Origin: Sphingobacteriia bacterium
GTDB lineage: Bacteria > Bacteroidota > Bacteroidia > Chitinophagales > Chitinophagaceae
Direction: 5' to 3'
Length of the DNA: 64,000 nucleotides
Assembly (NCBI GenBank): GCA_015999745.1
Contig: JAECQP010000001.1
Coordinates: 1-64,000 of the forward strand
Part shown: piece by piece, positions 1,634 to 39,771 of the stretch
Layout: the number at the start of each line of letters is the position of its first letter
Numbering within the stretch: position 1 is the first letter of the stretch
The notes under the pieces: generated by a model
Database searches by the model: none
What the model was told of the DNA's origin: nothing
What the model saw: the letters and a program-made list of their open reading frames with translations, nothing else
Made by a program: the position numbers and the translations under genes

Positions 1634-4600
1634 CTAGAGCGTACGCTTCACTTCTTCTTCTTCAAATGCTTCCACTATATCACCTACTCTTATATCGTTG
1701 AAGTTTTTGATGGTCAGACCACACTCCATATTGGATGCAACTTCTTTTGCATCGTCCTTGAAGCGTTTCAGGCTGCCCAGTTCTGCACTCTGGCCTTCTC
1801 CTTTAGGATATTCCACAATACCATCCCGAATAATCCGGATCTTACTGTTACGGGCAATCTTTCCCTCCAGTACATAACATCCTGCAACGGTTGCCTTATC
1901 AAACTTGTACACTTCACGGATTTCAACGTTGGCAGTGATTTTCTCCTGGTATTTAGGTTCGAGCATACCCTCCATCGCACTCTTAATCTCATCGATTACG
2001 GTGTAAATGATGGAGTATAACTTGATCTGTACGCCTTCTGTTTCCGCCAGCTTGTTAGCCTGCATGGAAGGACGAACATTAAATCCGATAATAATGGCGT
2101 CTGAAGCAGTAGCCAGCAGTACATCACTTTCAGAGATTTGTCCTACACCTTTCAATACCACTCTTACAGCAATCTCTTCGGTAGATAGTTTTTGTAATGA
2201 GTCACTAAGGGCCTCTACAGAACCATCCACGTCCCCTTTGATGATAATATTAAGTTCCTTGAAGTTTCCGAGCGCCAAACGACGGCCAATCTCATCCAGT
2301 GTAATATGTTTTCTTGCACGAAGACCCTGTTCACGCAGAATCTGTGCACGTTTGGTTGCCACTTCTTTTGCTTCAGCCTCTTCGTGGAATACTTTGAACT
2401 TCTCACCAGCCTGTGGAGCTCCGTTCAATCCGAGTATCACTACCGGGGTTGATGGCGGCGCATCATCAATACGCAGGTTCCTTTCGTTAAACATGGCTTT
2501 CACACGTCCAAAATGCTGACCGGATACAATCAGGTCTCCCTGACGCAGTGTGCCGTTCTGAACCAGGATGGTGGCTACATAACCACGACCCTTATCAAGC
2601 GATGCTTCAATGATTGTTCCGCTTGCCTCCCTGTTCGGATTGGCTTTCAGATCCAGCAGATCGGCTTCCAGCAATACTTTTTCCAGCAACTGGTCTACAT
2701 TCAATCCCTGTTTGGCAGATAATTCCTGGTTCTGGAATTTACCACCCCAGGCTTCCACCAGGATATTCATCTGAGACAGTTGCTCGTATATTTTCTGCGG
2801 ATTGGCTCCGTCTTTATCAATTTTGTTCACCGCAAATATCATCGGTACACCAGCTGCCTGCGCGTGGCTGATGGCTTCCCTGGTTTGAGGCATTACTGCA
2901 TCATCTGCTGCAACCACAATAATAGCGATATCGGTTATTTTCGCACCACGGGCACGCATGGCGGTAAACGCTTCGTGGCCCGGTGTATCCAGGAATGTGA
3001 TGGCTCTGCCATTCGGAAGTGTTACCTCGTAGGCGCCAATGTGCTGGGTAATACCACCGGCCTCACCGGCAACCACATTGGCATTTCTGATATAGTCGAG
3101 CAGAGATGTTTTACCGTGATCCACGTGACCCATGATGGTTACAATCGGCGCACGCTGCTGCTGGGCGGCTTCATCATCGGCTTCTTCTTCTTCCTCCATT
3201 TCATCTGCATCTTCCACACCAATGAATTCCACTTCGTAACCAAACTCACCCGCTACCAGTTCAATTACTTCCGCATCCAGGCGCTGGTTGATGGATACCA
3301 TGATACCGAGGTTCATACACTTACCGATTACATCGGCAAAGCTTACATCCATCAGGTTAGCCAGCTCACTCACAGTAACAAATTCTGTTACCTGCAGTTT
3401 GTTGTCTTCCATCATTTCCTCGCCCATTGCTTCCGCAGCTTCATCTCTCTTGGCTCTTCTGTATTTGGCTTTCAGGCTCTTTCCTCTTCCCCCGGTTCCG
3501 GCAAGCTTGGCCTGCGTTTCGCGGATCTTTTCCTGAATAGCTTTCTGATCTATTTCTTTGTCTTCATGACGAGGAGCGTTTCTGTCGTGACGGCCACCGC
3601 CACGGTTTCCGCCCTGACCGCCTCTGTTAAATCCACCACCCTGCTGTCCACCACGGTTGAACCCACCACCGCCGCCGGTATTGTTGCGGGCCGGAACAAT
3701 CGGACGGTTAGGTCCGGTCAGCGGCCTGCCTTCTGCATCTTTTGCAACCGGTGCAGTGGGAGTATTATCTCCTTTTTTATCTACAGGAATACGTTTGCGT
3801 TTGCGCTTCTCATCCCTTCCAACCGGTTTAGGACGGGTATCGCTGTTCACCGGAAGTTCAATTTTCCCTAAAATCTTTGGGCCTTCGAGTTTCTCGGCAC
3901 GGATATTCTCGATGGTTGGAGTTGTTGGTTCCGCTTCTACTACAGGAGGTACTGGTTTAGGCGCTTCCGCAACAGGAGCCGGAGCTTTTACAACCGGTTC
4001 AGCAGGTTGTGGAGGAGCTGCCGGAGCAACGGGCTCTACTGGTTTTGCCGGTGCTGCCGGTTCTACCTTCTTCACCGTTTTCTTAGGACGGGTTGAAGAG
4101 TCGATGGTAGAAAGGTCTATTTTATTGATCACGCGCGGCCCTTCAATGCCGGTTGTTTCTGTTTTGATTTTTTCCGGTTCAGCAGCGGGAGCCGGAGGCG
4201 GTGTTACGGGAGCGGGTGCTTCTGCTTTTACTTCCACTACAGGTTTCTCCTCAACCGGAGCGGGTGCTTCTACCACTACCGGGGCAGGGATAGGTGCTGG
4301 TGCAGGCACAGGTACAACAACAGGCTCCTCTGCCTTCACTTCTTCCTTAGCCGGTGCAGGAGCCGCTTTTTTCTCCTCTTTCCTGAAGGTGATTTCTTCC
4401 TCATCCTTCTTCTTACGCGCTTCGGACTGTGCCACTTTCGGGATTTCCACCTGGTCCGCCTTGTTCTTGGCAACCTTATCGCTCTGGAACTCTGCCTGCA
4501 GGGCACGATACTGGTCTTCCTGAAGCTTTGCGGTAGGTTTCAGGTCATCTCGGTTAAATCCTCTTTTCACCAGGAATTCGATCAGGGTATCCTGACCAAT

Positions 4601-6618: not shown

Positions 6619-6690
6619 TTTTTAGCGCCCTTGTCATTTTTAGGCATTTTAACAAAAGGATGACCGCTTTCTTGGTAATTTTATGTCCTT

Positions 6691-6951
6691 ATGTTTAAGA
6701 TACTATTCTGGTGTTTATTAATTTACCTGGGCTACCGCTTTATATTCGAGCTGGTAATCCCTGTAAGCAGAACGGCCGGCCAGTTAAAAAAGAAAATGGC
6801 CGAAATGCAGGAGCAACAAGCATTTCAACAACAGTATACCCGTCAAAGTTCCGGGCAAACAACCCAACAACCCCAATCTGGCGGCGCTACCGGTAATCCC
6901 GGCAGGGATGCCGGAAGGGACGATTATATCGATTTCGAGGAAATCAAATAA
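6691..6951 (+). CDS. DUF4834 family small membrane-anchored protein
   Basis: Small protein of 86 residues with one N-terminal membrane segment (LFWCLLIYLGYRFIFELVIPV, about 5-25), a short basic/coiled stretch (KKKMAEMQEQQ), a Gln/Gly-rich linker and an acidic end (DYIDFEEIK). This is the layout of the DUF4834 family of Bacteroidota, which has no established function. It is divergent from rimP and converges with the HAD gene, whose stop lies 3 bases away. Confidence 0.8.
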   Translation: MFKILFWCLLIYLGYRFIFELVIPVSRTAGQLKKKMAEMQEQQAFQQQYTRQSSGQTTQQPQSGGATGNPGRDAGRDDYIDFEEIK

Positions 6952-6954
6952 GCC

Positions 6955-7569
6955 TTACAATGCCAGGTCCAGCACGGTTTTGGGCGCTTCCAGATGAATC
7001 GTCCGGAGTCCTGCCTGTTGAGCGCCTTCAATATTCTTAAAAGTATCGTCAATAAAAAGCGTTTCTGCAGGATTCAGCTGTTGCTCCGTCAGAATCTGCT
7101 GAAAAGATGCAACATAAGGCTTTCTCAGGCCAAGCGTCTGGGAGTAATAAGCATGGATGAAATAGCTGTTAAAATCCTTATCGGGAAAGGTCCGGGCAAA
7201 ATCAGCAATGAACTGGTCGTAATGGATCTGATTGGTATTGGAGAACAGGTAAATATGGTACCGCTCCCGTATTGCATCCAGCCAGTTGATGCGTTCCGCC
7301 GGAAAATCGAGCAACAAAGCATTCCAGGCTGTTTTGATCTGTTCATCTGTCAGATCCAGCGCGGTTTCTTTCCTGAAAGCATCATAAAACTCGCCGGGAG
7401 ACAGGCGGCCTGTTTCCAGTAGTTCAAAAAGATCATTGGAATGCTGCTGGGTAAACATAGCATCAAACTGATGCACCCCAAGGTCTCTGAAAGCCTTGCT
7501 GGTTAATTGATAATCGATGTTCAGAAACACACCGCCTAAGTCGAAAATGATATTTTTTACCGGTTCCAT
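6955..7569 (-). CDS. HAD superfamily hydrolase (phosphatase, subfamily IA)
   Basis: Haloacid-dehalogenase-type phosphatase of 204 residues. Motif I is NIIFDLGGV (residues 6-14; the second Asp position is Gly, so not the strict DxD, as in the YihX-like phosphatases whose motif is FDLGxVxxxxD), motif II is LFSNTN (about 111-116), motif III a Lys in LRKPYVASF and motif IV FIDDT. The YihX/alpha-D-glucose-1-phosphate phosphatase type is a plausible relative, but the substrate cannot be read. It stands alone, 29 bases upstream-side from the DUF6370 gene on the same strand, possibly co-transcribed with it. Confidence 0.85.
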   Translation of the reverse strand: MEPVKNIIFDLGGVFLNIDYQLTSKAFRDLGVHQFDAMFTQQHSNDLFELLETGRLSPGEFYDAFRKETALDLTDEQIKTAWNALLLDFPAERINWLDAIRERYHIYLFSNTNQIHYDQFIADFARTFPDKDFNSYFIHAYYSQTLGLRKPYVASFQQILTEQQLNPAETLFIDDTFKNIEGAQQAGLRTIHLEAPKTVLDLAL

Positions 7570-13656: not shown

Positions 13657-14553
13657 TTAGTTAAGTGAACGGTACTCATTGGGTGAAACCCCAACCTTCT
13701 GCTTAAACAACCGGGTAAAATGTTGAGGATATTTGAACCCTAAATCTGTAGCGATCTGCGCAACAGATTTACTGAGATCAAATACTTTTTCTTTTGCCAG
13801 ATCAATCACTTTAGACTGTACATATTCCTGTGCTGTGCGACCGGTCTCTTTTTTGATGAGATCGCCAAAATAACCGGCGGACAGGTTCAGTTCATTTGCA
13901 CAATAGCTTACTGACGGCAAACCTAATGACTGGGGCTTATCAGATAGAAAATAATCTTTGAGTAACACTTCAAAACGTTCCAGTACGCCCTTGTGCGGCG
14001 TGTCGCGGGTTAGGAACTGGCGGTCGTAAAATCGGATGCAATAATTCAAAAAAAGTTCAATATTGGCAATGATCAGGCGTTTGCTGTGCTTATCAATTGC
14101 ACCTTCCAATTCGTACTTAATCTTAGTAAAGCAATCCAGAACAATCTCCCTTTCTTTCGTAGATAGATGCAGCGATTCGTTGGATTGATAACCGAAAAAG
14201 GTATAATCTGCAATATGCCTTCCAAGTGCTGTACCATGTATGAAATCGGAATGAAAAATCAAAGCATATCCTTTCGGCTGATATGTTTCACCGTTGCTGT
14301 TCATTCCAACCACTTGTCCCGGTGAGAAGAATACCAACGTTCCTTCCTGGTAGTCATAGGTATGTCTTCCATAAGTTAGGTCTCCGCATACAACATCCTT
14401 CAAAAAGACCGTATAAAATCCAAAATACATTTTGCAACCCTGGCGCGGGTCGGCTTTGGATAGATCCACAACACTCACAAGGGGGTGCAAGGTTTCATTT
14501 TTATTAAAAACATTGTAATCATTGATCGTTTCAAACCGCCGCATTTCTTTCAT
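13657..14553 (-). CDS. AraC family transcriptional regulator
   Basis: DNA-binding regulator of 298 residues. The N-terminal part (about 20-170) is a cupin-like sensor fold (TLVFFSPGQVVGMNS) and the C-terminal 100 residues carry two helix-turn-helix motifs (LNLSAGYFGDLIKKETGRTAQEYV and VAQIATDLGFKYPQHFTRLFKQKVGVSPNEYR). The ATG at 14553 (MKEMRRFETINDYN) is chosen over an upstream start at 14592. It is divergent from the two aldo/keto reductase genes, the usual arrangement when this type of regulator controls them; the inducer is unknown. Confidence 0.9.
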   Translation of the reverse strand: MKEMRRFETINDYNVFNKNETLHPLVSVVDLSKADPRQGCKMYFGFYTVFLKDVVCGDLTYGRHTYDYQEGTLVFFSPGQVVGMNSNGETYQPKGYALIFHSDFIHGTALGRHIADYTFFGYQSNESLHLSTKEREIVLDCFTKIKYELEGAIDKHSKRLIIANIELFLNYCIRFYDRQFLTRDTPHKGVLERFEVLLKDYFLSDKPQSLGLPSVSYCANELNLSAGYFGDLIKKETGRTAQEYVQSKVIDLAKEKVFDLSKSVAQIATDLGFKYPQHFTRLFKQKVGVSPNEYRSLN

Positions 14554-14639
14554 AATAATGAATATTGTAGGTGACAAAATTACCCTTTTCAACCACTTTT
14601 CATAGATACGGAGCCCAAATCAGCAATAGTGGTAGATAA

Positions 14640-15962
<1,323 letters not shown>

Positions 15963-29070: not shown

Positions 29071-30759
29071 TTAATACCCCGGATTTTGCTTCAGATATCC
29101 CGGAAGATTCGTTGCACCATCAATCGCAGTTTGCGGTATCGGGAAAAGGCGCTTGTTTTTATCCGTATTAGTTTTTTCAGTCCAGGTGCCTTCATATTTT
29201 CCAAAACGGATCATATCAGTTCTTCTATTCATCTCCCAGTACAATTCAAATCCCCTTTCTCTAAAAAGTAGATCAAGCGTAAGTGCACCTGTTAAAGAAG
29301 ACGGTTTTACATTATACGCTGTTCTGGAAAGGCGAACCGTATTTACATCGGTAATGGCTCCCGCTGCATCATTTTTGCGCAATTTTGCTTCAGCACGCAT
29401 TAAAAAAATATCTGCCAGGCGAACAATAGAAATATCAGCTTCTCCAAAATTTCTTCCACTGGAAGACTTTCTGCTGAATTCATATTTTTCTACGCGAAAT
29501 CCGGTAGAATAATCACTTCCTGCTGTGGTAAAATCAACCTGTTCCGTAAAATTTACCGGCAGTGTAGGTTTACTCCTTGTATCATTGTACAATGGACCCA
29601 CTTTATAACCTCCGGAGGCGCATTTAACAAATACACCATTCTTTCTGATCAAACCATATTGCTGCCCGCGCAAAATACCACGATCTATATTAAAATCTGC
29701 AACACATGAATCTCCCGGATTAGTGTAGATGGAAATATTCTGTTTATAAAATCTTGGATCTGCCTTAGCAGGGTCTACTGCACCATAAGCATTTACCCAT
29801 GTTCTGTAAAAATCGGAAGTAATGGCAGGGCCATCCGTACCGTTTGCACCGGGGAATGCAGGTAATGGAAACTGGTCGCCGGAAAGAGAGAAATAAGCGA
29901 GGCGGTTATGGCCGTTGAGATCCGCACGCTGATCAACTGCAAAGATCAGTTCTTTATTAGTATTGTTAGCATCACCAAAAATGGCAAAATAATCAGGAGA
30001 CAAAGCGTACTGACCGGAAGTAATGATTTTATCACAATATTTGATAACCTCATCCATATCCGCAGCTTTGAAATCAAAACTGGAAGCATAGATATCACGA
30101 TATACCGGTGCATTGAGATGTAATCTTGCCAATAAGCCCCAGACTGCAGCTTTGGTTAATCTCCCCGGTCCATTGGTGGTACCCAGCTGGAGTTCAACCG
30201 CCAGTAACTCATTCTTAATATAATCAACAGCCGCGCTTCCTCGAATAATTGCGGACGTTTGTCCGGGATCTTCTTTTACAAATACAACTCCGAATAAATC
30301 GAGGCTGAGTAAGTTATAGAATGCACGCATCCCTCTTGCTTCAGCAGCATAAGCTACAGCATTGGCATCTGTACTTCCCTTTAAAGAACTAATAGCGGTA
30401 ATGGACCTGGAGAGTCCCTGTGCAATCAGGTTCCAGGTATCCTTTACATTGGGATCTGTTGTGGCTGTTTCATGCTTGTGTAAAGATATATATATCCCGT
30501 TATCACCCCAATCGGTACCACCCCGGTAAGGGAGGATTGCTTCATCGGTAGAAATTTCCTGCAGGGCAAAATAAGTTGTATGACGATAGATGTCCGGCAG
30601 TCTTGCATATACCGGAGCAATCAGGCCATCAGCAATCTGCTTCTCGGTTAACCCTGTTACAGAAGATTCATCCAGCACATTCTCCTGTAATTTACTACAG
30701 CCGCTTGCAGAAAGAATCAGCAGCGAAAGTATGGAGAGTTTAACTATATATTTTTTCAT
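29071..30759 (-). CDS. SusD/RagB family nutrient-binding lipoprotein
   Basis: Surface lipoprotein of 562 residues: lipobox ILSASGC, SusD-like N-terminal part (about 30-200) and RagB/SusD C-terminal domain (about 290-562; DIFLMRAEAKLRKNDAAGAITDVNTVRLSR and LTLDLLFRERGFELYWEMNRRTDMIRFGKY are the classic tetratricopeptide-like end). It captures a ligand at the mouth of the SusC-type barrel encoded 9 bases upstream. The neighbouring divergent phosphoesterase suggests a phosphorylated or lipid-derived ligand rather than a glycan; this is inference. Confidence 0.95.
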   Translation of the reverse strand: MKKYIVKLSILSLLILSASGCSKLQENVLDESSVTGLTEKQIADGLIAPVYARLPDIYRHTTYFALQEISTDEAILPYRGGTDWGDNGIYISLHKHETATTDPNVKDTWNLIAQGLSRSITAISSLKGSTDANAVAYAAEARGMRAFYNLLSLDLFGVVFVKEDPGQTSAIIRGSAAVDYIKNELLAVELQLGTTNGPGRLTKAAVWGLLARLHLNAPVYRDIYASSFDFKAADMDEVIKYCDKIITSGQYALSPDYFAIFGDANNTNKELIFAVDQRADLNGHNRLAYFSLSGDQFPLPAFPGANGTDGPAITSDFYRTWVNAYGAVDPAKADPRFYKQNISIYTNPGDSCVADFNIDRGILRGQQYGLIRKNGVFVKCASGGYKVGPLYNDTRSKPTLPVNFTEQVDFTTAGSDYSTGFRVEKYEFSRKSSSGRNFGEADISIVRLADIFLMRAEAKLRKNDAAGAITDVNTVRLSRTAYNVKPSSLTGALTLDLLFRERGFELYWEMNRRTDMIRFGKYEGTWTEKTNTDKNKRLFPIPQTAIDGATNLPGYLKQNPGY

Positions 30760-30768
30760 GCGTTTTAA

Positions 30769-33700
30769 TTAAAGGGATATATTCAGGCCGAAAATGATTG
30801 ATTTTGCTTTTGGATAACTCTGGTAATCAATGCCATAAGAAGAAACGCCATTAATGGTTCTGTCTGCATTTACATCAGGATCATATCCATTGTATTTAGT
30901 AATCACAAACAAGTTCTGACCAGTTACAGACAGACGAACTCCGGAAATCCATTTACTGATCCCCAGCTTATCTACATTCAGACTATAACCGATTGCCAGA
31001 TTATTCAATCGCAGGTACGCCCCATTCTTTAAAAAACGGGTACTTACCGGTGCAGCATTATTCACCGACTCCTGCGGATTAGTCACGGCTTCAGGCGTGG
31101 TATTAATTCCCTTTGAAAGGCGAAGCTTATAAAAATTTGCATTTGCCGTATTGTCGTAAACTTTATTTCCGGAAACGCCATTGAAATTCACAGCGAAGTC
31201 AAACCCTTTATAAGAAATGGTCCCGAAGAAATTGTAAAGAAGATTTGGCAGGGCCGTTCCTGCAGCTATACGGTCCTTATCGCTTACAATACCGTCACCA
31301 TCCGTATCGCGGTAGGTGCTTAATCCTGCATTATCAAAACCGGTAAACTCTTTCAGGTAAAAAGTACCGATAGGCTGATTGTTAATGTAACCGTTAATAG
31401 TCGCAGAAGTTAATCCGGAACCGGATGCAGACCCTGAAGGAATGACTGTGTATGGAGAGCTAGTCACTTTGTTACTGATGGCTGTAATGTTTCCGCCAAT
31501 GGAATAGTTAATCCCCTTTTGTGTACGCACTTTGTATTCCAGTTCAAATTCCACCCCTTTGTTAGTGATTTTCATATCCTTTACATTCGTCCAGAAGCTT
31601 CCTGCAGGCTGAACAGGATCAGCAGGAATCACTTCTAATAAAATATTGTCGGATACTTTATTAAACAGGTCGATTGATCCATTCAGTTTTCCGTTCAGGA
31701 AGCCAAAATCCAATCCGACATTTGTTTGCGTGGAAACCTCCCACTGAATATCAGGATTGGCCAAACGGGAGAAAGTGGTTCCTGCCGGGTATGCTCCTGT
31801 TGCGTAAAGCGGATAACTTGTTGTGGCAGATACTGAAGATGTATAGAGCGCCTGTGTAATTTTTGAAGGGATTTCCTGATTCCCTGTTTTACCCCAACCT
31901 GCTCTTAACTTCAGGTTACTAAAGGGACTGTTGCTCATAAAATCTTCTTCCGAAATTTTCCAGCCGAGTGAGAAAGACGGGAAAACACCATACTTATTAT
32001 TGGCACCAAATTTAGAAGAGCCGTCTGCTCTGACATTTACAGTAGCCAGGTATTTGTTTTTATATTGATAGTTTACCCTTCCAAAAAAAGATTGCAACTC
32101 ATTTTCCAAAGCATATCCACCGGGCTTATTATTAGCAAGAGTCAGGTCCTGGCCAAGACCTGGGTTGTACTGTGGCTCAACAGGAGAAATAGGGAATTTG
32201 TTAATGCTGTAATTTCTGCCTTGCAGGAAGATTTTCTGAAAAGAATGACCTGCAAGGGCAGACAGATTATGGTTGCCTTTGTTCAGGGTATAAGTGAGGT
32301 AGTTTTCAATCAGCGTGTTTCTGTTGGTAGTATAATAAGTTTCCAGTCTTCCCTCCCTAAAGGGGACTGCGTTGGGTAAAGACTGTATGTCTCTTGTGCC
32401 CGTAGAATTATCTACTCCAAAGTTCAGCTTGTATACAAGCCCTTTCGTGATTTTAAAAGAAGCTGAAATATTTCCAATTACCCGATTAATTTTAGCAATA
32501 TCCTGTTCCAGCTTAAACGACAATAATGGATTTGAAATACTCTGGTACTGAGCAGGATTTCCACTGGCATCGAGTGCCGGATAAGTTGGGTTATTTGAAA
32601 TAGCATCACCAATTACACCATTTATAGGAGGCCGCTTATTATAAGTGCTGGTTGCATTTAAATTCAGTTCTATTGTTAACCGGTCTTCCAGTAATTTTTG
32701 TGTTGCATTAAATCGACCTGAATACCTTTTAAAATCATTGAACCTGATAATACCTTCCTGGTTCTGCAAACCCAATGAAGCATAATAAGTTAGCTTATCG
32801 GAACCGCCGCTTAGGGTAAGATTATGATTTTGTGTGAGCGCTGTTCTGGTGATCTCTTTCTGCCAGTCGGTGTTACCGCCTTTGTCATCCAGCACGCCGC
32901 CTACTGCAGGTACTTGTTTTCTGTATTCGTCTGCAGAGAAAACAGGAAGTGCTCTTGCTATATTGGATAAACCAAAACTTGCTGAATAGCTCATTGTTGA
33001 GATGCCGGCTTTCCCTTTTTTAGTGGTAATCAGAATTACTCCATTTGCACCACGCGCACCATAAATAGCAGTAGCAGAAGCGTCTTTCAGCACATCCATA
33101 GACTCAATATCGTCCGGATTAAGGAAGTTGAGCGGGTTTCCGCCGCCTGTACTGGAATTATCAAGGGCCAATCCATCTATCACAAACAAAGGTGTACTTC
33201 CTGTTCTCACCCCACCAGGCCCACGTACACTTATTGACAATATTCCACCGGGTTCACCACTGGCTGCAGTTACATTAACACCTGCAACCTTTCCTTGTAA
33301 CAACTGTTCAGGTGAATTGATAATCCCTTTATTAAATGATTCGCTTTTGATTGATTTAACGGCACCGGTTACATCCTTTTTGCTTTGTGTACCATACCCT
33401 ACCACTACCACCTGCGTAAGATCACTTACTGTAGTTTTTAATTCCACATTTAATGTGTTTATGCCATTCACAGCAATTTCCTGCGAAGCATATCCTATAT
33501 AAGAAAAGATCAACACTACATCTGCATTACTGATCTTTACCGAATACATACCATTTGCATCAGCAGATGTGGTTGTTTTTCCTCCTTTAATGGTAACAGT
33601 TGCCCCCGCCAATGCCCTGCCTGTAGTAAAGTCTGTTATTTTTCCGGTAATTACTTCTTCCGTCTGCGCCTCATCTCTATATGCTGTAAGTCCTGTTGCA

Positions 33701-33786
33701 TAAGTGGGCACCATATTGAAAGTAAGAAGCAACAAGAACAACGATCTACAGAGAGTTCGAATGCTGTATGATTTAAATTTAGTCAT
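30769..33786 (-). CDS. SusC/RagA family TonB-linked outer-membrane protein
   Basis: Transporter barrel of 1005 residues from ATG 33786 (MTKFKSYSIRTLCRSLF). Signal peptide, CarboxypepD-like domain (about 45-125), plug with VVVGYGTQSKKDVTGAVKS and GVNVTAASGEPGGILSISVRG (about 130-245), then the barrel. It lacks an N-terminal STN domain, so no direct anti-sigma signalling is expected, and no ECF sigma/anti-sigma genes are nearby. Forms a two-gene operon with susD. Confidence 0.95.
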   Translation of the reverse strand: MTKFKSYSIRTLCRSLFLLLLTFNMVPTYATGLTAYRDEAQTEEVITGKITDFTTGRALAGATVTIKGGKTTTSADANGMYSVKISNADVVLIFSYIGYASQEIAVNGINTLNVELKTTVSDLTQVVVVGYGTQSKKDVTGAVKSIKSESFNKGIINSPEQLLQGKVAGVNVTAASGEPGGILSISVRGPGGVRTGSTPLFVIDGLALDNSSTGGGNPLNFLNPDDIESMDVLKDASATAIYGARGANGVILITTKKGKAGISTMSYSASFGLSNIARALPVFSADEYRKQVPAVGGVLDDKGGNTDWQKEITRTALTQNHNLTLSGGSDKLTYYASLGLQNQEGIIRFNDFKRYSGRFNATQKLLEDRLTIELNLNATSTYNKRPPINGVIGDAISNNPTYPALDASGNPAQYQSISNPLLSFKLEQDIAKINRVIGNISASFKITKGLVYKLNFGVDNSTGTRDIQSLPNAVPFREGRLETYYTTNRNTLIENYLTYTLNKGNHNLSALAGHSFQKIFLQGRNYSINKFPISPVEPQYNPGLGQDLTLANNKPGGYALENELQSFFGRVNYQYKNKYLATVNVRADGSSKFGANNKYGVFPSFSLGWKISEEDFMSNSPFSNLKLRAGWGKTGNQEIPSKITQALYTSSVSATTSYPLYATGAYPAGTTFSRLANPDIQWEVSTQTNVGLDFGFLNGKLNGSIDLFNKVSDNILLEVIPADPVQPAGSFWTNVKDMKITNKGVEFELEYKVRTQKGINYSIGGNITAISNKVTSSPYTVIPSGSASGSGLTSATINGYINNQPIGTFYLKEFTGFDNAGLSTYRDTDGDGIVSDKDRIAAGTALPNLLYNFFGTISYKGFDFAVNFNGVSGNKVYDNTANANFYKLRLSKGINTTPEAVTNPQESVNNAAPVSTRFLKNGAYLRLNNLAIGYSLNVDKLGISKWISGVRLSVTGQNLFVITKYNGYDPDVNADRTINGVSSYGIDYQSYPKAKSIIFGLNISL

Positions 33787-33921
33787 TGAGTTCTTTTTGT
33801 GGTATTTTACTGACAACGAAAGTATATTCCTGAATGCTCAATAATAGCCTGTCATTTAATTGTAAACATTTGATAACACAAAAGAAACAAAAACATAATA
33901 TGTTGAGCAAAGCCTTAGATT

Positions 33922-33929
33922 TATGTTTG
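33922..33929 (+). promoter_or_regulatory. -7 box of the three-part phosphoesterase gene
   Basis: TATGTTTG fits TAnnTTTG. A TTG at 33903-33905 is the nearest -33 candidate, at a short spacing of 16. The implied start lies at about 33936, so translation from ATG 33946 would have a leader of about 10 bases and ATG 33937 would be leaderless. Confidence 0.4.
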
Positions 33930-33945
33930 ACTAAATATGAACAAC

Positions 33946-36900
33946 ATGAAGTTTCTGCTGCAAATCGTTTGCCTGCTTTCTTTTTCATTTACTGCTCTCC
34001 GGGCTCAACCCCATATCTATTCTGCGTCCAACGCTCATTCACATAACGACTACAGGCAGGACAGGCCTTTTTATCATGCATTCAATGAGGGTTTTGGTTC
34101 CATTGAAGCAGATATACATTTGCTGAATGGAATGCTTTTGGTTGGTCATGATTCAACTGACCTCACTATAGACAGAACACTGGAAAAAATGTACCTGCAG
34201 CCCCTGACAGAAGTAAACTTTGCGGGCAGAAAACTGCAATTACTGATAGATATTAAATCAGCGTCAGAACCTACCTTAAAAGCATTGGTGGATTTATTGA
34301 AAAAATATCCGACATTAATCAATCACCCGTCTCTGCGCATCATTATATCGGGTAACGGCCCCGATACGCATCGTTATAAAGACTATCCTTCTTTTATCTG
34401 GTTTGACGGAAAGCTTAAAGATCATTATAGCCCTGAAGCACTTTCAAGAATCGCATTATTGAGTGAAAACCTGAATGATCTCGGAGATTGGAAAGATCAC
34501 TGGCCGCTTAATAAAGCAGAGTTAAAAAAAATCAATGAACTAATTACGAAAGCACATGCCTTACAAAAACCTGTTCGATTCTGGACCAATCCGGATCACA
34601 AGGAAGGGTGGGAAGCAATGATTGGATTAAAGGTTGATTACATCAACACAGACCGTATTAATGATCTTTCTGACTATATCACCAAAAGAAACCTCACCAC
34701 CCATGTATTGCCCTATAACCGAATAATACGTTCCGCCGGGAATGTTGTCCGTTTTGGAAATCCCGATCTGGAGAATCATGCATTGGATGTTGCTTCTTTA
34801 GATGAAGAAGGTATGGTAGTCATCGAAGACCGATATGGGATAGCCGCTTTAGATATTCATACAAAAACCATCCGCTCGAGATGGAGTTTTCAGGATGTTG
34901 TTCAATATAAAAATTACATGAGTACCTATTCAGGTATTCAGTGTTTCAGGGAAAAAGACAAAACATGGGTTATATGGAGCGCGGCAGATAAAAACGGGAA
35001 TGGCGCAGCTGTTATGATTGCAGAATGGAACAATGGTTTTACAAATATTTCAGAAATACCCGTCAGCAAAAAAGCGCCCGCCCGAAATGCTATTCCCAAT
35101 GAGGTGGTCAGTGTAGTGGAAAATGGAGAAAGATATATTTATCTTGTATTGAATGGTAATGACGAATTACTGAAATTAAACTGGAATAAACGTTCCATTG
35201 TTTGGAACGTACCTACATCAGTGGCTCCATATGGCCTCGCGCTTGCAGCAAATAAAGTGTACGTAAGCAACTGGGCAGGCGAACAGGCTTCTGATTCTTT
35301 GAAAGAAAGGGCAGGTGTTCCCTGGGGACTGGCCTATACAGATCCGCGCACCGGAGCCACTTCAAACGGCACTGTAAGTGTTTTTGATCAGCAATCCGGA
35401 AAAAAGCTTCATGAAATAAAAGTGGGCCTGCACCCCAATGTGGTAAGGGCTTCTTCAGACGGACATTTTATATTTGTAGCCAATGGCTCAGATGATCATA
35501 TATCCGTGATTCAAACAAAATCTGACCGGGTTTCCGAAACCATTCCTGTGGGGCTGTTAAATGATAAAAGAGGGGCACAGGGAAGTACTCCTAATGGATT
35601 ACTGCTAAACAAGGATAATTCACTATTATATGTTTCAAACGGGATGGATAATGCAGTTGCAGTAATACAATTGGGTAAAAATGCGTCCCTTCATGGGAAA
35701 TTAACCTCGCATATTAAAGGATATATTCCAACGGAAGCATACCCGGCAGGCTTATTGATCTCAAACGGTCAACTGGTTGTTGCTAACCTGGAATCAGATG
35801 GCGCCAATGTAATCCACAAAATTAAAGGAGCTCGTTCCATCCACAATCAACTCGCATCTGTAAGTATTATTCCGGTTCCGGAGCAGGCTGTATTGCTTAA
35901 CTATACAAAAGAAGTTGCACAGTTGAATTTGATCAACAGAACAGAACAATTACTGTTACCTGCCAGGCAGAATATGGCTCCTGTTCCCGTTCCGGAAAGA
36001 ATCGGAGAACCATCCGTATTTAAACACGTAGTTTATATCATCAAGGAGAATAAAACCTACGACCAGGTTTTTGGTGATATCAACATTGGAAAGGGTGACT
36101 CTTCGCTCTGTGTATTTGGAGAAAAAATAACACCCAACATGCACGCCTTGGCTAAACAGTTTGGATGGATGGACGATTATTATGCCTCCGGTAAATCTTC
36201 TGCAGAGGGGCACCAGTGGACAGATGCCGGTATGGTTTCAGATTATGTTGAAAAAAATGTTCGGGCATGGTTCAGAAGTTATCCGCACAGGCAGGAAGAT
36301 GCCCTGGTATACAACAAAGCCGGTTTCATCTGGAACCATGCCATGGATCATGGTAAAAAAGTGCGGATATTCGGAGAAGCCTGCGAAACAGAGTACGACC
36401 GAAAACTTAAATGGGCAGAGTTGTACAAAAGGTATCAGGCGGGTATTCAACCGGATTGGTATAATAAAAGTACAATCAACAGGATTCTGCCCGTTATTTC
36501 TCCGGACTTTCCTGATTGCGACAATATGGTATTCAGTGATCAGCAAAGGGCCGATATCTTTATTAAGGAATGGAAGCATTTTGAAGCAAAGGACAGCATG
36601 CCTCATCTCATGATTCTATCCCTGCCTAATGATCACACTGCGGGTACATCTCCTAATTTTCCTACTCCCAATGCAATGGTGGCGGATAATGATCTTGCTG
36701 TTGGACGGATTGTAGAAACAATTTCTAAAAGCAGGTTTTGGGATTCTACTGTAATATTCATCACACAGGATGATTCTCAGAGCGGTTGGGATCATATTTC
36801 CGCTTACAGAACCATCGGGCTTGCCATCAGCCCTTACAGCAGCGGGAAACTGGTATCAAGTAACTATAATCAGACATCTATGCTCAGAACCATTGAGCAG

Positions 36901-37185
36901 ATACTGGGTATTCCTCCAATGAACATCATTGATGCTACGGCACGTTTGATGACAGATTGTTTTCAGCTCAAAAAAAATATGGATTCATATACCTCCCTAC
37001 CTAATAATGTTCCTTTGGATCAAATGAACAAACCGCTAAAAGGTCTTACTGGCAAAACCAGGAAAATGGCTTTAATTTCTCAAAACGAAGTGTTCAATGA
37101 AGTAGACGGCGGAAAAGATGATGCCATGAACAGGATCTTGTGGTATTATGCAAAAGGAAACAAGAAATACCCGGTTTCAAAATAA
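33946..37185 (+). CDS. Three-domain secreted protein: PI-PLC/GDPD-like, beta-propeller, phosphoesterase
   Basis: Exported protein of 1079 residues with a signal peptide (ending ALRAQ). Part 1 (about 25-245) has SNAHSHNDYRQDRPFYHA, GSIEADIHLLNGMLLVGHD and LLIDIKS, which give the His, Glu, Asp and His of a phosphatidylinositol-phospholipase C/glycerophosphodiesterase-type barrel. Part 2 (about 255-685) is a YVTN/YncE-like beta-propeller (VYVSNWAGE, FIFVANGSDDHISVIQT, LLYVSNGMDNAVAVIQL). Part 3 (about 690-1010) is a phosphoesterase of the phospholipase C/alkaline-phosphatase type (YIIKENKTYDQVFGD, EGHQWTDAG, FITQDDSQSGWDHI). Parts 2 and 3 together are a known pairing; part 1 in front is unusual. 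It is divergent from SusC/SusD, which suggests joint use in lipid or phosphate scavenging. ATG 33937 is an alternative start. Confidence 0.85.
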   Translation: MKFLLQIVCLLSFSFTALRAQPHIYSASNAHSHNDYRQDRPFYHAFNEGFGSIEADIHLLNGMLLVGHDSTDLTIDRTLEKMYLQPLTEVNFAGRKLQLLIDIKSASEPTLKALVDLLKKYPTLINHPSLRIIISGNGPDTHRYKDYPSFIWFDGKLKDHYSPEALSRIALLSENLNDLGDWKDHWPLNKAELKKINELITKAHALQKPVRFWTNPDHKEGWEAMIGLKVDYINTDRINDLSDYITKRNLTTHVLPYNRIIRSAGNVVRFGNPDLENHALDVASLDEEGMVVIEDRYGIAALDIHTKTIRSRWSFQDVVQYKNYMSTYSGIQCFREKDKTWVIWSAADKNGNGAAVMIAEWNNGFTNISEIPVSKKAPARNAIPNEVVSVVENGERYIYLVLNGNDELLKLNWNKRSIVWNVPTSVAPYGLALAANKVYVSNWAGEQASDSLKERAGVPWGLAYTDPRTGATSNGTVSVFDQQSGKKLHEIKVGLHPNVVRASSDGHFIFVANGSDDHISVIQTKSDRVSETIPVGLLNDKRGAQGSTPNGLLLNKDNSLLYVSNGMDNAVAVIQLGKNASLHGKLTSHIKGYIPTEAYPAGLLISNGQLVVANLESDGANVIHKIKGARSIHNQLASVSIIPVPEQAVLLNYTKEVAQLNLINRTEQLLLPARQNMAPVPVPERIGEPSVFKHVVYIIKENKTYDQVFGDINIGKGDSSLCVFGEKITPNMHALAKQFGWMDDYYASGKSSAEGHQWTDAGMVSDYVEKNVRAWFRSYPHRQEDALVYNKAGFIWNHAMDHGKKVRIFGEACETEYDRKLKWAELYKRYQAGIQPDWYNKSTINRILPVISPDFPDCDNMVFSDQQRADIFIKEWKHFEAKDSMPHLMILSLPNDHTAGTSPNFPTPNAMVADNDLAVGRIVETISKSRFWDSTVIFITQDDSQSGWDHISAYRTIGLAISPYSSGKLVSSNYNQTSMLRTIEQILGIPPMNIIDATARLMTDCFQLKKNMDSYTSLPNNVPLDQMNKPLKGLTGKTRKMALISQNEVFNEVDGGKDDAMNRILWYYAKGNKKYPVSK

Positions 37186-37230: not shown

Positions 37231-38226
37231 TTATTGATTTTGTTCGGCCTGTTTTTTCTTCTCTTTTTCCAATTTTCTAAAATAACCCCTGAAGAAGAAA
37301 TTATGCTTTAGCGCTTCCATATTCTGATTGAAACCATCTGTACCTTTCTGAATATTCTCCAGGCTTCTGTTCAACTTATTAGCCATGGCGCTGTCTTTCA
37401 GCAAGGCGTTTACAGTTCCTGGTCCCTGATCAATATCTTTTTGTATTCCTTTCACTGCGGAACTAATCTGTTGTGAAAGCCGGTCGGCCTGATCGCCAAC
37501 TTCTTTGATCTTTAAAACAGCCGCATTCAGATTTTGTCCCAGCGCTGTATCTGTAACGATGGCGCCCAAAGATCCTTTCCCATTTTTTACACCAAGTACA
37601 ATCGATTGCAGGTCGGCGATCATCCTATTGGCCTTATCGGTAGCCTGATGTATATTGTATGCCGACTTCTTTAAATGGTTGGGGATTCCTTCCTCGTTCA
37701 GGAGATTCCACAAAGCAGTACTGTTGTTTATTTTACCAATTGTTGTTTTTAACCCCTCGGTAATAATAGCCAGGTCGTTATTCGTTTTACTGAGTGTCCG
37801 CAGCATTTCATCGGTATCAATCGATTTCCTGGCGCTTAGCACGTCTCCATCTTCCACGGGTGAAGCGGGTGTTTTTGAGCTGGAGATCTCTACTACTTTA
37901 TTACCCACCAGCCCATCAGTACGAATAGAGACAATGGCATTTTTACGGATCACCGGTTTAACCAATTCATCAATCACCATTTCAACTTGCATTGTCGTGT
38001 CGTTCAGGATATTGATTTTTTTAACCGTACCCACATCAATGCCCGCGTAACGTACATTGTTGCCCGACTTCAAACCCTGCACATTATCCAATTGCACTTT
38101 TAATACAAAAGAGGATCCAAATAAATGCTGGTTTTTCCCTATCAGGTACAACAACACTATAATAAAAGTCAACCCGGCTAATACGAATGCGCCAAGCCTG
38201 ACATTGTTGAAAGTTTGCTTTGCCAT
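37231..38226 (-). CDS. MlaD family (MCE) lipid-transport protein
   Basis: Protein of 331 residues with one N-terminal membrane anchor (LGAFVLAGLTFIIVLLYLIG, about 10-30), an MCE domain (about 37-115: FVLKVQLDNVQGLKSGNNVRYAGIDVG, the family hallmark) and a long helical, coiled-coil tail. It forms the periplasmic hexameric ring that passes phospholipids between membranes. Last of a three-gene operon permease-ATPase-MCE (gaps 9 and 6 bases). No MlaA, B or C genes are adjacent, as usual in Bacteroidota. Confidence 0.92.
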   Translation of the reverse strand: MAKQTFNNVRLGAFVLAGLTFIIVLLYLIGKNQHLFGSSFVLKVQLDNVQGLKSGNNVRYAGIDVGTVKKINILNDTTMQVEMVIDELVKPVIRKNAIVSIRTDGLVGNKVVEISSSKTPASPVEDGDVLSARKSIDTDEMLRTLSKTNNDLAIITEGLKTTIGKINNSTALWNLLNEEGIPNHLKKSAYNIHQATDKANRMIADLQSIVLGVKNGKGSLGAIVTDTALGQNLNAAVLKIKEVGDQADRLSQQISSAVKGIQKDIDQGPGTVNALLKDSAMANKLNRSLENIQKGTDGFNQNMEALKHNFFFRGYFRKLEKEKKKQAEQNQ

Positions 38227-38232
38227 TTATGC

Positions 38233-38985
38233 TTACTGTTTAAATTCTTGTTCAAAAAACTGTTTTACCTTCGGATCTGTATGATGTTGCAGTTCTGCAT
38301 ACGTTCCCGCTGCATAACAGGTTCCGTCGTACAATACCACCACCCGGTCGCTGGCCCTTCTCACACAATTCATATCGTGTGAAATGATCAGCGACGAAGT
38401 ATTGTATTTCTTCTTGATTTCTATCATCAAACTAATGATCTCACTTCCGGTAATCGAATCCAGACCGGTGGTGGGCTCATCATACAAAATAATATCCGGC
38501 TTTAAAATAAGTGTTCTTGCCAAGGCAATCCTTTTTCGCATTCCTCCCGATAACTCAATCGGCATCATATCTATTGTATGTGCCAACCCTACATCTTCAA
38601 GCGCTTCCATCACCATGTTATTCACCTCCTCCTGCGAAACTTCAATCCAATGCCTGCGCAGCGGAAATTCAAGGTTTTCTCTCACCGTCATGGAATCATA
38701 TAAAGCATTGCTCTGAAACAGGAACCCTACTTTTGCCCGGATTTTATCCAGCTCTGTGTCATCCATATCATTGATACACTGATCAAACACATCGATGGTT
38801 CCCTCGTCTGGTTTCAGCAACCCGATAATGCATTTGATCAAAACGGATTTTCCCGAGCCGGACTTACCCAGCACCACCACATTCTCACCCTTGTATAATT
38901 CAAAATTGAAATCAATCAGCACATGATTGTTACCAAATGATTTATACAGATGCGATATTTTCATGACCGATTCAGACGGTGTCAT
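38233..38985 (-). CDS. MlaF-type ABC transporter ATP-binding protein
   Basis: ATPase of 250 residues for the Mla lipid transporter. Walker A is GKSGSGKS (about 39-46), signature LSGGMRKRIALAR, Walker B DIILYDEPTTGLDS, and the switch His in LIISHDM. The MKISHLYKSFG start at 38964 is an alternative. Central gene of the mlaE-F-D operon. Confidence 0.93.
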   Translation of the reverse strand: MTPSESVMKISHLYKSFGNNHVLIDFNFELYKGENVVVLGKSGSGKSVLIKCIIGLLKPDEGTIDVFDQCINDMDDTELDKIRAKVGFLFQSNALYDSMTVRENLEFPLRRHWIEVSQEEVNNMVMEALEDVGLAHTIDMMPIELSGGMRKRIALARTLILKPDIILYDEPTTGLDSITGSEIISLMIEIKKKYNTSSLIISHDMNCVRRASDRVVVLYDGTCYAAGTYAELQHHTDPKVKQFFEQEFKQ

Positions 38986-38994
38986 ACTACTGGT

Positions 38995-39771
38995 TTAATT
39001 AAATCCTAATAAATCTGTGATCTGCACAGCCAACAGATCCAGGATAAATATCACAACAGAAGAAAGCACCACCGCCGAGTTGGCGCTGTGTCCCACACCT
39101 TCTGTTCCCTTTTTACTGTTATACCCCTTGAAACATCCAATGATTCCAACCGCAAATCCAAAGAAAAAAGTTTTGATAAACGCCGGTAGCACATCATTAA
39201 AAGCAAGGCTGTCTATTACTTCAACCCAAAAAAGATGGAAGCTGGTAGCGCCTCTTACATTAACGCCAAGATAGGCCCCATATAAAGAGATGGCATCGCT
39301 CAGCACCGACAGGATCGGCAGCATACAAACTGCCGCCATTACCCGGGTTACAACCAGGTATTTAAAGGGATTGGTTCCACTTACTTCCATGGCGTCAATC
39401 TGTTCGGTTACCTTCATGGAACCTAATTCTGCACCAATACTGGAGCCGATTTTACCTGCAAAAATCAATGCGGTAATGACAGGCCCTATTTCACGCACAA
39501 TGGCAATGCCAACGATTGCCGGCAATTGGGATTCCACACCATAATCTACCATGGATGGGCGCAATTGCAAGGTGAGTACGAGCCCCATAATAAAACCGGT
39601 CAGTCCTACCAGTGGCAAGGACTGGTATCCAATAATATAACATTGCCTTATAAACTCCGACACCTCATATCTCGGCCTGAAACATTGCGCAAAAAAACGG
39701 GCTGCAAATCGGGAGAGTTCGCCTGCTTCGGAAAGAAATGCCTGAAATCTGGTTTGGTTGCTCATTTGCAT
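38995..39771 (-). CDS. MlaE family ABC transporter permease
   Basis: Inner-membrane permease of 258 residues with about five to six membrane helices and MlaE signatures (LVGLTGFIMGLVLTLQ, ELGSMKVTEQIDAMEVSGTNPFKYLVVTRV, the EQIDA coupling helix, and FKGYNSKKGTEGVGHSAN). First gene of the operon; the preceding 157 bases separate it from a divergent ATP-grasp gene. ATG 39765 (MSNQTRF) is an alternative start. Confidence 0.93.
   Translation of the reverse strand: MQMSNQTRFQAFLSEAGELSRFAARFFAQCFRPRYEVSEFIRQCYIIGYQSLPLVGLTGFIMGLVLTLQLRPSMVDYGVESQLPAIVGIAIVREIGPVITALIFAGKIGSSIGAELGSMKVTEQIDAMEVSGTNPFKYLVVTRVMAAVCMLPILSVLSDAISLYGAYLGVNVRGATSFHLFWVEVIDSLAFNDVLPAFIKTFFFGFAVGIIGCFKGYNSKKGTEGVGHSANSAVVLSSVVIFILDLLAVQITDLLGFN

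Follow-up and report, generated by a model that had tools for sequence, protein, structure and literature searches.

By default, SusC/SusD (SusCD) pairs are read as sugar importers. What, then, does such a pair import when the gene beside it encodes a phosphoesterase? The question is raised by a locus in a 64,000-nt stretch (the window; positions 1 to 64,000 of contig JAECQP010000001.1, Sphingobacteriia bacterium), where a SusC and a SusD gene lie divergent from the gene of an exported, three-part phosphoesterase. An earlier note on this DNA had proposed a SusCD system for phosphate, not glycans. Gene comparisons indicate that the locus is probably a phosphate utilisation system (PUS) of the type described in Flavobacterium johnsoniae, in which the phosphomonoesterase partner has been exchanged. 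Of the new evidence, the strongest is the linkage of the SusCD clade to phosphatase genes together with 11-bp repeats upstream of its SusC genes, rather than the window's own promoter. The features of the locus are as follows.

29071 to 30759, minus strand: SusD-like outer-membrane lipoprotein, 562 aa (PF07980; lipobox ASGC from sequence)
30769 to 33786, minus strand: SusC-like TonB-dependent transporter, 1005 aa from the ATG at 33786 (TIGR04056, TIGR04057 signature, plug and CarbopepD_reg_2 domains)
33787 to 33936: divergent intergenic region, with a degenerate 11-bp direct repeat (TAAA-N7-TAAC) from 33863
33937 to 37185, plus strand: exported three-part phosphoesterase, 1082 aa (Pfam/NCBIfam domains, alignments of relatives)
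33937 to 34005, plus strand: signal peptide, residues 1-23, no lipobox (read from sequence)
34009 to 34692, plus strand: predicted TIM barrel of the glycerophosphodiester phosphodiesterase (GDPD) type, residues 25-252 (PF13653, structure model, PDB matches, conservation)
34729 to 35883, plus strand: YncE/YVTN-type beta-propeller, about residues 265-649 (TIGR02276; Foldseek matches)
36004 to 37176, plus strand: PF04185 phosphoesterase domain, about residues 690-1080 (PF04185; weak 2d1g alignment; invariant residues)

A SusCD pair is divergent from a three-part phosphoesterase

Both transporter components belong to their families: SusD scored 83.3 bits against PF07980 (cut-off 23.1) and SusC 738 bits against TIGR04056 (cut-off 368), with the TIGR04057 signature also above its cut-off. 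The two genes are on the minus strand with 9 bases between them. The SusC reading frame as listed (30769-33816) extends to a TTG at 33816, and its first ATG is at 33786. According to Pfam and NCBIfam, the divergent gene encodes, in order, PF13653 GDPD_2 (30.6 bits; cut-off 27), YVTN repeats (TIGR02276, 40.7 bits; cut-off 27.85) and PF04185 (39.6 bits; cut-off 23). Several relatives begin at a position equivalent to M4 (33946), a possible alternative start. The open reading frames are real at these coordinates, and the divergent arrangement described in the earlier note was thus borne out.

The same note had predicted an N-terminal barrel of the phospholipase C or GDPD type, and domain and fold comparisons support a GDPD/PI-PLC-type barrel. 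Modelled alone, the region formed a beta/alpha barrel with a predicted local distance difference test (pLDDT) score of 92.1; the full-length model was weaker (pLDDT 76). When Foldseek matches were re-aligned with VIA-align 2, the tied top rows were mostly GDPDs, including 3no3, the BDI_0402 GDPD of Parabacteroides distasonis (Z 16.4, root-mean-square deviation 3.0, 201 aligned), 2pz0 (Z 15.8) and 2o55 (Z 15.7). Although 3no3 shares the fold, its identity to the module is only 20%. One of the tied top matches was not a GDPD (7wwc, titled beta-1,3(4)-glucanase, Z 15.5). The Ca-dependent phosphatidylinositol-specific phospholipase C (PI-PLC) 5fyr and Bacillus subtilis GlpQ 5t9c gave Z scores of 15.0 and 14.9. 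Searched against PDB sequences, a profile of 22 modules retrieved three entries, each a GDPD, with weak E-values between 0.015 and 0.78. Of the Pfam GDPD models, the short PF13653 matched the window module and the full-length PF03009 did not.

Across the 22 modules, H34, E57, D59 and K107 are invariant, and H71 and D105 nearly so. The catalytic pattern H...ExD...H of GDPD and PI-PLC-like phosphodiesterases is present, and the ExD and HD columns align with 2pz0, at weak E. We take these residues to have catalytic roles, with H34 presumably matching its counterpart in GDPDs.

The best Foldseek matches to the propeller of the full-length model were E. coli YncE 7seu and 3vgz; the fusion scored 20.4 bits against the YncE equivalog NF052280, below the cut-off of 400. 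In the PF04185 domain, E704 N705, S755, D945 D946 and H953 are invariant in 24 aligned proteins. This domain aligns weakly with acid phosphatase 2d1g (E 7e-5), the EN and DD..DH columns matching, and these residues presumably have metal and nucleophile roles. The chain scored 30.6 bits against the phosphocholine-specific phospholipase C model TIGR03396, short of the equivalog cut-off of 580. PhoA and PF04185 enzymes both belong to the alkaline-phosphatase superfamily.

The SusCD clade is linked to phosphatase genes

Orthologues of the window SusD (E ≤ 1e-120) were found at 36 loci in 35 of 396 genomes of the order (loci are cited by our numbers, L). Within 8 kb of SusD, a GDPD module, usually fused to PhoA, is present in 18 of the 36 (17/35 without the window). 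The module, PhoA or a propeller-phosphoesterase is present in 19, window included, and PhoX is next door to SusD in L192. By contrast, none of 16 other SusD loci of the window genome, used as a control, had a module, PhoA, phosphoesterase, metallophosphatase, PhoX or PI-PLC gene. The Fisher p for 18/36 versus 0/16 is 0.0003, with or without the window, and is indicative, as a single genome served as control and the test loci are not independent of one another by descent. Flanks were shorter than 12 of 16 kb in six of the 16 control and seven of 34 fetched test loci. The clade has phosphatases near about half of its loci, which supports that part of the earlier proposal.

Other phosphorus-related genes occur nearby. 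A conserved Metallophos protein accompanies the SusCD/GDPD-PhoA loci, in five cases (L165 2615-3595, L170 11283-12272, L171 10641-11762, L182 9610-10584 and L183 9423-10475), and PI-PLC-C1 is found with PhoX near SusCD in L197. Two of five further SusD orthologues outside the order (L268, L272) are near such genes, with a PI-PLC-C1-type gene near L272.

The link can also be viewed from the enzyme. Our named collection comprises 80 loci with this phosphoesterase, 32 with the module and 48 without it. An orthologous SusD (>55% identity) is present in four of the 32 fusion loci, adjacent in L097 (the same locus as L031), L102 and L127 and three genes away in L105, and in one of the 48 module-less loci (L128). 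Orthologous SusCD genes also adjoin the enzyme in the window, in L066 and, outside the order, in L268. The genes stay adjacent in each of three arrangements: a divergent one (window, L066, L102, L127, L128), one with the enzyme first, enzyme>C>D (L097), and one with it last, C>D>enzyme (L268). With adjacency in three of the 32 fusion loci, and a fourth case three genes away, the fusion does without SusCD in most. Nor is the module what ties the system together, because the SusCD clade is also linked to module-less phosphoesterases (L128, L268).

Repeats of 11 bp often precede SusC genes of the clade

Direct repeats of 11 bp are read as PhoB sites. Motif discovery upstream of 37 SusC genes of the clade yielded the pattern TAAC-N7-TAAC, which we counted at fixed spacings against first-order Markov shuffles. 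Exact TAAC repeats at spacing 11 precede nine of the 37 genes (100 shuffles gave a mean of 0.43 and at most 3), as compared with five at spacing 12 and 0-1 at spacings 8-10, 13 and 14. In pst operons of relatives in this order, exact repeats occur in six of ten at spacing 11 and in none at the others, and the exact form is absent from 12 control SusC upstream regions. With one mismatch allowed, the pattern was found upstream of 30/37 clade genes (null 9.5, largest 15; 15 at spacing 12), 10/10 pst operons (null 2.6) and 4/12 controls (null 2.4). The 37 regions include the window and the near-duplicates L170/L171, L175/L187 and L180/L181; L166, L173, L186, L190 and L192 were left out. The control is 12 of the 16 loci (L204, L210, L212 and L213 left out). 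The pst set comprises nine loci reached through PhoU plus L214, two of the 11 PhoU loci (L253, L259) having been left out as cut or lacking pstS.

A position weight matrix (PWM) derived from the pst sites gave a consistent result: 27 clade regions were enriched over shuffles (p 9e-9), while the 12 control regions were not (p 0.40). For the 50% clade set (n=10, window included), p was 0.07, and upstream of module-less phosphoesterases enrichment was weak (46 loci, p 0.0096). Since the pst sites were picked with the SusC-clade pattern, the PWM is not wholly independent, and the fixed-pattern spacing test is the cleaner of the two. The clade motif score of 87.9 alone proves nothing: the three letter shuffles used for comparison had fewer restarts, the best motif of width 22 was a different one, and from the 12 control regions came another motif that scored higher per sequence (4.73 vs 2.37).

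Eight of the ten pst operons (L250, L251, L252, L255-L258, L214) carry same-strand pairs like (T/G)TAACATTnnG, a candidate phosphate box; such pairs were not seen in L254 and L260. The excerpted text of PMC3547664 gives no Pho-box sequence. Two other markers of the Pho regulon were rejected, pstS (considered for the genus) and PhoX. In L231, the neighbour of the pstS (PF12849) match is, by its sequence start, a TPR-type gene and not pstC; the PF12849 check in this genome rests on that one locus. PhoX was too rare (5/117), and PhoU was used instead.

The genome apparently takes up phosphate without Pst

The host genome (3.03 Mb, 98% complete) has no PhoU match, and its best PstB match falls below the cut-off (153 of 343 bits). 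It has one PHO4/Pit carrier, whose neighbours, named from their sequence starts, are presumably a DUF47-type protein and a histidine-kinase fragment. Judged from its genes, uptake of inorganic phosphate (Pi) thus apparently proceeds without Pst. Numerous Flavobacterium likewise have no high-affinity Pi ABC transporter (Lidbury et al., PMC8812569, cited here from excerpts).

The locus resembles the PUS loci of Flavobacterium

In the excerpts of Lidbury et al. (PMC8115612) that we cite, PUS loci are defined in F. johnsoniae as Pi-induced SusCD genes next to phosphatases, in clusters distinct from those that process carbohydrates. Of these features the window has the gene combination, a SusCD pair co-localised with predicted phosphomono- and phosphodiesterase domains. 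In PUSII, Pi-induced PusCD2 (Fjoh_3250/3251) adjoins PhoA1 (Fjoh_3249), reported with PF13653 (PMC8115612); PhoA1 restores phosphomonoesterase activity (PMC8812569). The bearer of PF13653 is disputed between these excerpts, being Fjoh_3249 PhoA1 in PMC8115612 and PhoA2 (fjoh_3187) in Table 1 of PMC8812569.

As in PUSII, the window pair stands beside a phosphatase with an extra PF13653 domain, periplasmic in PUSII, and the PUSII order C-D-(module-PhoA) recurs in relatives of the window SusCD (L176, L194, L198). Unlike in PUSII, the phosphatase part is propeller-PF04185 and not PhoA, the layout is divergent without an adjacent FecR-type regulator, and Pi induction is a prediction. PUSI pairs PusCD1 (Fjoh_4168/4169) with two phosphodiesterases (PMC8115612), a likeness in combining SusCD with phosphodiesterases that extends to the PI-PLC-C1-type genes near L197 and L272; the PUSI enzymes are separate, whereas the window has one fused chain. 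The earlier note had singled out the N-terminal module with SusCD as the novelty, and in this it was anticipated by PUSII as excerpted: Pi-induced SusCD with a PF13653-bearing PhoA is already known in Flavobacterium. New here is propeller-PF04185 as the phosphatase partner. The propeller-phosphoesterases of Mucilaginibacter, Segetibacter and Pedobacter share that part but lack the N-terminal GDPD barrel, and no description of the triple fusion was found in titles or abstract openings of the open-licence literature searched.

Proposed function and competing explanations

We infer the substrate, the reaction order, the location and Pi induction of this locus. As members of their families, SusD and SusC would capture small organic phosphates and, powered by TonB, bring them through the outer membrane. 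In the periplasm, the N-terminal barrel, by its fold and conserved residues, may open phosphodiesters such as glycerophosphodiester head groups. The PF04185 domain, on similar grounds, would then hydrolyse the monoester so formed, and the propeller would serve as a scaffold. Because the genome lacks a PhoU match and a PstB over the cut-off, the PHO4/Pit carrier would take the released Pi through the inner membrane. Our best guess for the substrate is small glycerophosphodiester-type organophosphates cleaved in the periplasm.

Several findings weigh against this reading. The main doubt comes from glycosidase genes near SusD in some relatives. At nine SusD loci, ten nearby genes in all were picked for informative-looking starts and run on Pfam, and glycosidases were found near four orthologues: L168 (GH97, 13882-15621), L169 (GH16, directly after SusD, 6646-7539), L176 (arabinofuranosidase, 1023-2993, in a locus that also carries module-PhoA) and L179 (GHL10-amidase, 2027-4099). 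Sulfatases lie near SusD in L169 and L182. Part of the clade may therefore serve glycans, or these neighbours may be incidental; the finding lowered our confidence in the PUS-type reading. Furthermore, 16 of the 36 SusD loci show none of the phosphatase genes within 8 kb (L166, L172, L173 and L187 among them have short flanks), as do three of the five orthologues outside the order (L269-L271). No orthologous SusD was present in the sequence examined of 28 of the 32 fusion loci, including 17 of the 20 with at least 5 kb on both sides. The window SusD also matches the starch SusD model NF033071, at 139 bits and far below its cut-off of 725. Finally, the PWM is not enriched upstream of fusion genes (30 loci, p 0.33), the window's own repeat is degenerate, and its best PWM site in 33817-33936 (33873-33894) is marginal (p 0.078). 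With a degenerate site, and with fusion genes not enriched as a group, Pi regulation of this copy stays a candidate; phosphate-box-like sites, a proxy of ours that the published PUS definition does not include, are enriched in the clade, and the one suggested for the intergenic region is marginal. As standalone evidence, a window phosphate box was rejected: the 64 kb contain 26 other, higher-scoring places, of which the best (10230) is inside a coding gene.

SusCD pairs usually carry oligomers. The pair might accordingly import phosphorylated glycans or phosphate-substituted polymers (teichoic-acid-like, phosphoglycans), from which the enzyme would strip glycerol-phosphate or phosphate for a gain of both phosphorus and carbon. 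The four loci with glycosidases fit such a role, as do GlpQ 5t9c and the glucanase chain 7wwc among the barrel matches. However, the glycosidases are of four different families, while the recurrent neighbours of SusCD are module-PhoA, PhoA and Metallophos. In the window, a Pfam scan of nine genes, the three of the locus and six flanking ones, found no glycosidase, genes further out being unscanned. The earlier note's statement that none is near thus stands for those flanking genes and does not carry over to the clade. We consider import of phosphorylated glycans unlikely.

Alternatively, the adjacency could be incidental, the fused enzyme being an independent phosphatase and the pair a glycan importer that lies alongside by chance. 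The small share of fusion loci that adjoin SusCD, the SusD loci without a phosphatase of our panel and the glycosidases near some of them would all be expected from such an arrangement. Chance does not readily account for adjacency in three different layouts, for a module near SusD in 18/36 loci against 0/16 in the control, or for 11-bp repeats whose exact form is absent from 12 control SusC genes, and we regard this explanation as distinctly improbable. Recycling of the cell's own phospholipid head groups, suggested by the lipid-transport genes MlaD, MlaF and MlaE (37231-39771, minus strand; Pfam) directly downstream of and convergent with the fusion gene, is very improbable, as no homologue of these genes (>35% identity, E 1e-20) was found beside 103 related loci, some of which are the same locus twice and many of which have short flanks.

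The phosphate reading of the SusCD pair is fairly well supported by sequence comparisons. A broader proposal, which we advance tentatively and with more doubt than conviction, is that the clade is a phosphate-box-controlled organophosphate importer, replacing Pst where it is absent, in Chitinophagales and other Bacteroidia. It would have co-evolved with a GDPD barrel joined to PhoA and to propeller-PF04185 as one-chain diester-to-phosphate enzymes. The clade offers marks for SusCD pairs that may scavenge phosphorus outside Flavobacterium, the group in which the idea was shown, namely the SusD clade itself, a GDPD-phosphatase neighbour and the 11-bp TAAC repeats. If the proposal is true, the acquisition of phosphate in the absence of Pst could be tested across a large group of bacteria from soil and fresh water.

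Distribution and history of the fusion

The closest named matches to the fusion are from Chitinophagaceae metagenome-assembled genomes and Ferruginibacter. One fusion carrier in culture is Ferruginibacter paludis CECT 8366 (L111), whose flank contains no SusCD. The full chain was found in four of 37 genus members examined (own genome included) and in seven of the 396 order genomes; the counts are lower bounds, since scoring in the order and class searches was confined to each genome's two or three best candidates. Because the same module is joined to the same phosphoesterase in 32 of the 80 named loci, the fusion is no sequencing accident; it is a family-level variant, as judged from these sequences. 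Within the collection, L108 and L117 of the module-less loci are cut by contig ends, and among the module-bearing loci the reading frame is broken in L109 and L150, while others (L099, L113) are truncated. Module-less propeller-phosphoesterases (Mucilaginibacter, Segetibacter, Pedobacter and others) share 48-62% identity with the fusion over about residues 257-1080.

Elsewhere the module stands alone (L058-L064) or is fused to PhoA, PF00245 (L037, L038 and many SusCD loci). A stand-alone module at the murA locus was considered as the ancestor and dropped: L058, L059 and L061 fall inside the fusion clade (ultrafast bootstrap, UFboot, 97-100) and so look like secondary losses. The broken-frame module-propeller-phosphoesterase genes of L150 (9989-13289) and L109 (3-3059) have a module that groups with PhoA-type modules, at weak support. 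FastTree suggests a second fusion origin for these two, but the grouping has a UFboot of 44 and we do not claim it.

Some minor features were also noted. TAnnTTTG is the consensus of the Bacteroidetes -7 box; it is present at 33922-33929, yet is no commoner than chance. A PHP-domain/DUF5001 gene is divergent from the fusion in L032 (10366-11490), L033 (4037-5170) and L105 (762-1895); in L032 and L033 it takes the place of SusCD, which is absent from the stretch examined. In L034 (5775-7463, minus strand), a GDPD_2 module is fused to a C-terminal part of ~300 residues without a Pfam match, and the gene adjoins those of a TonB-dependent receptor and a DUF4397 protein.

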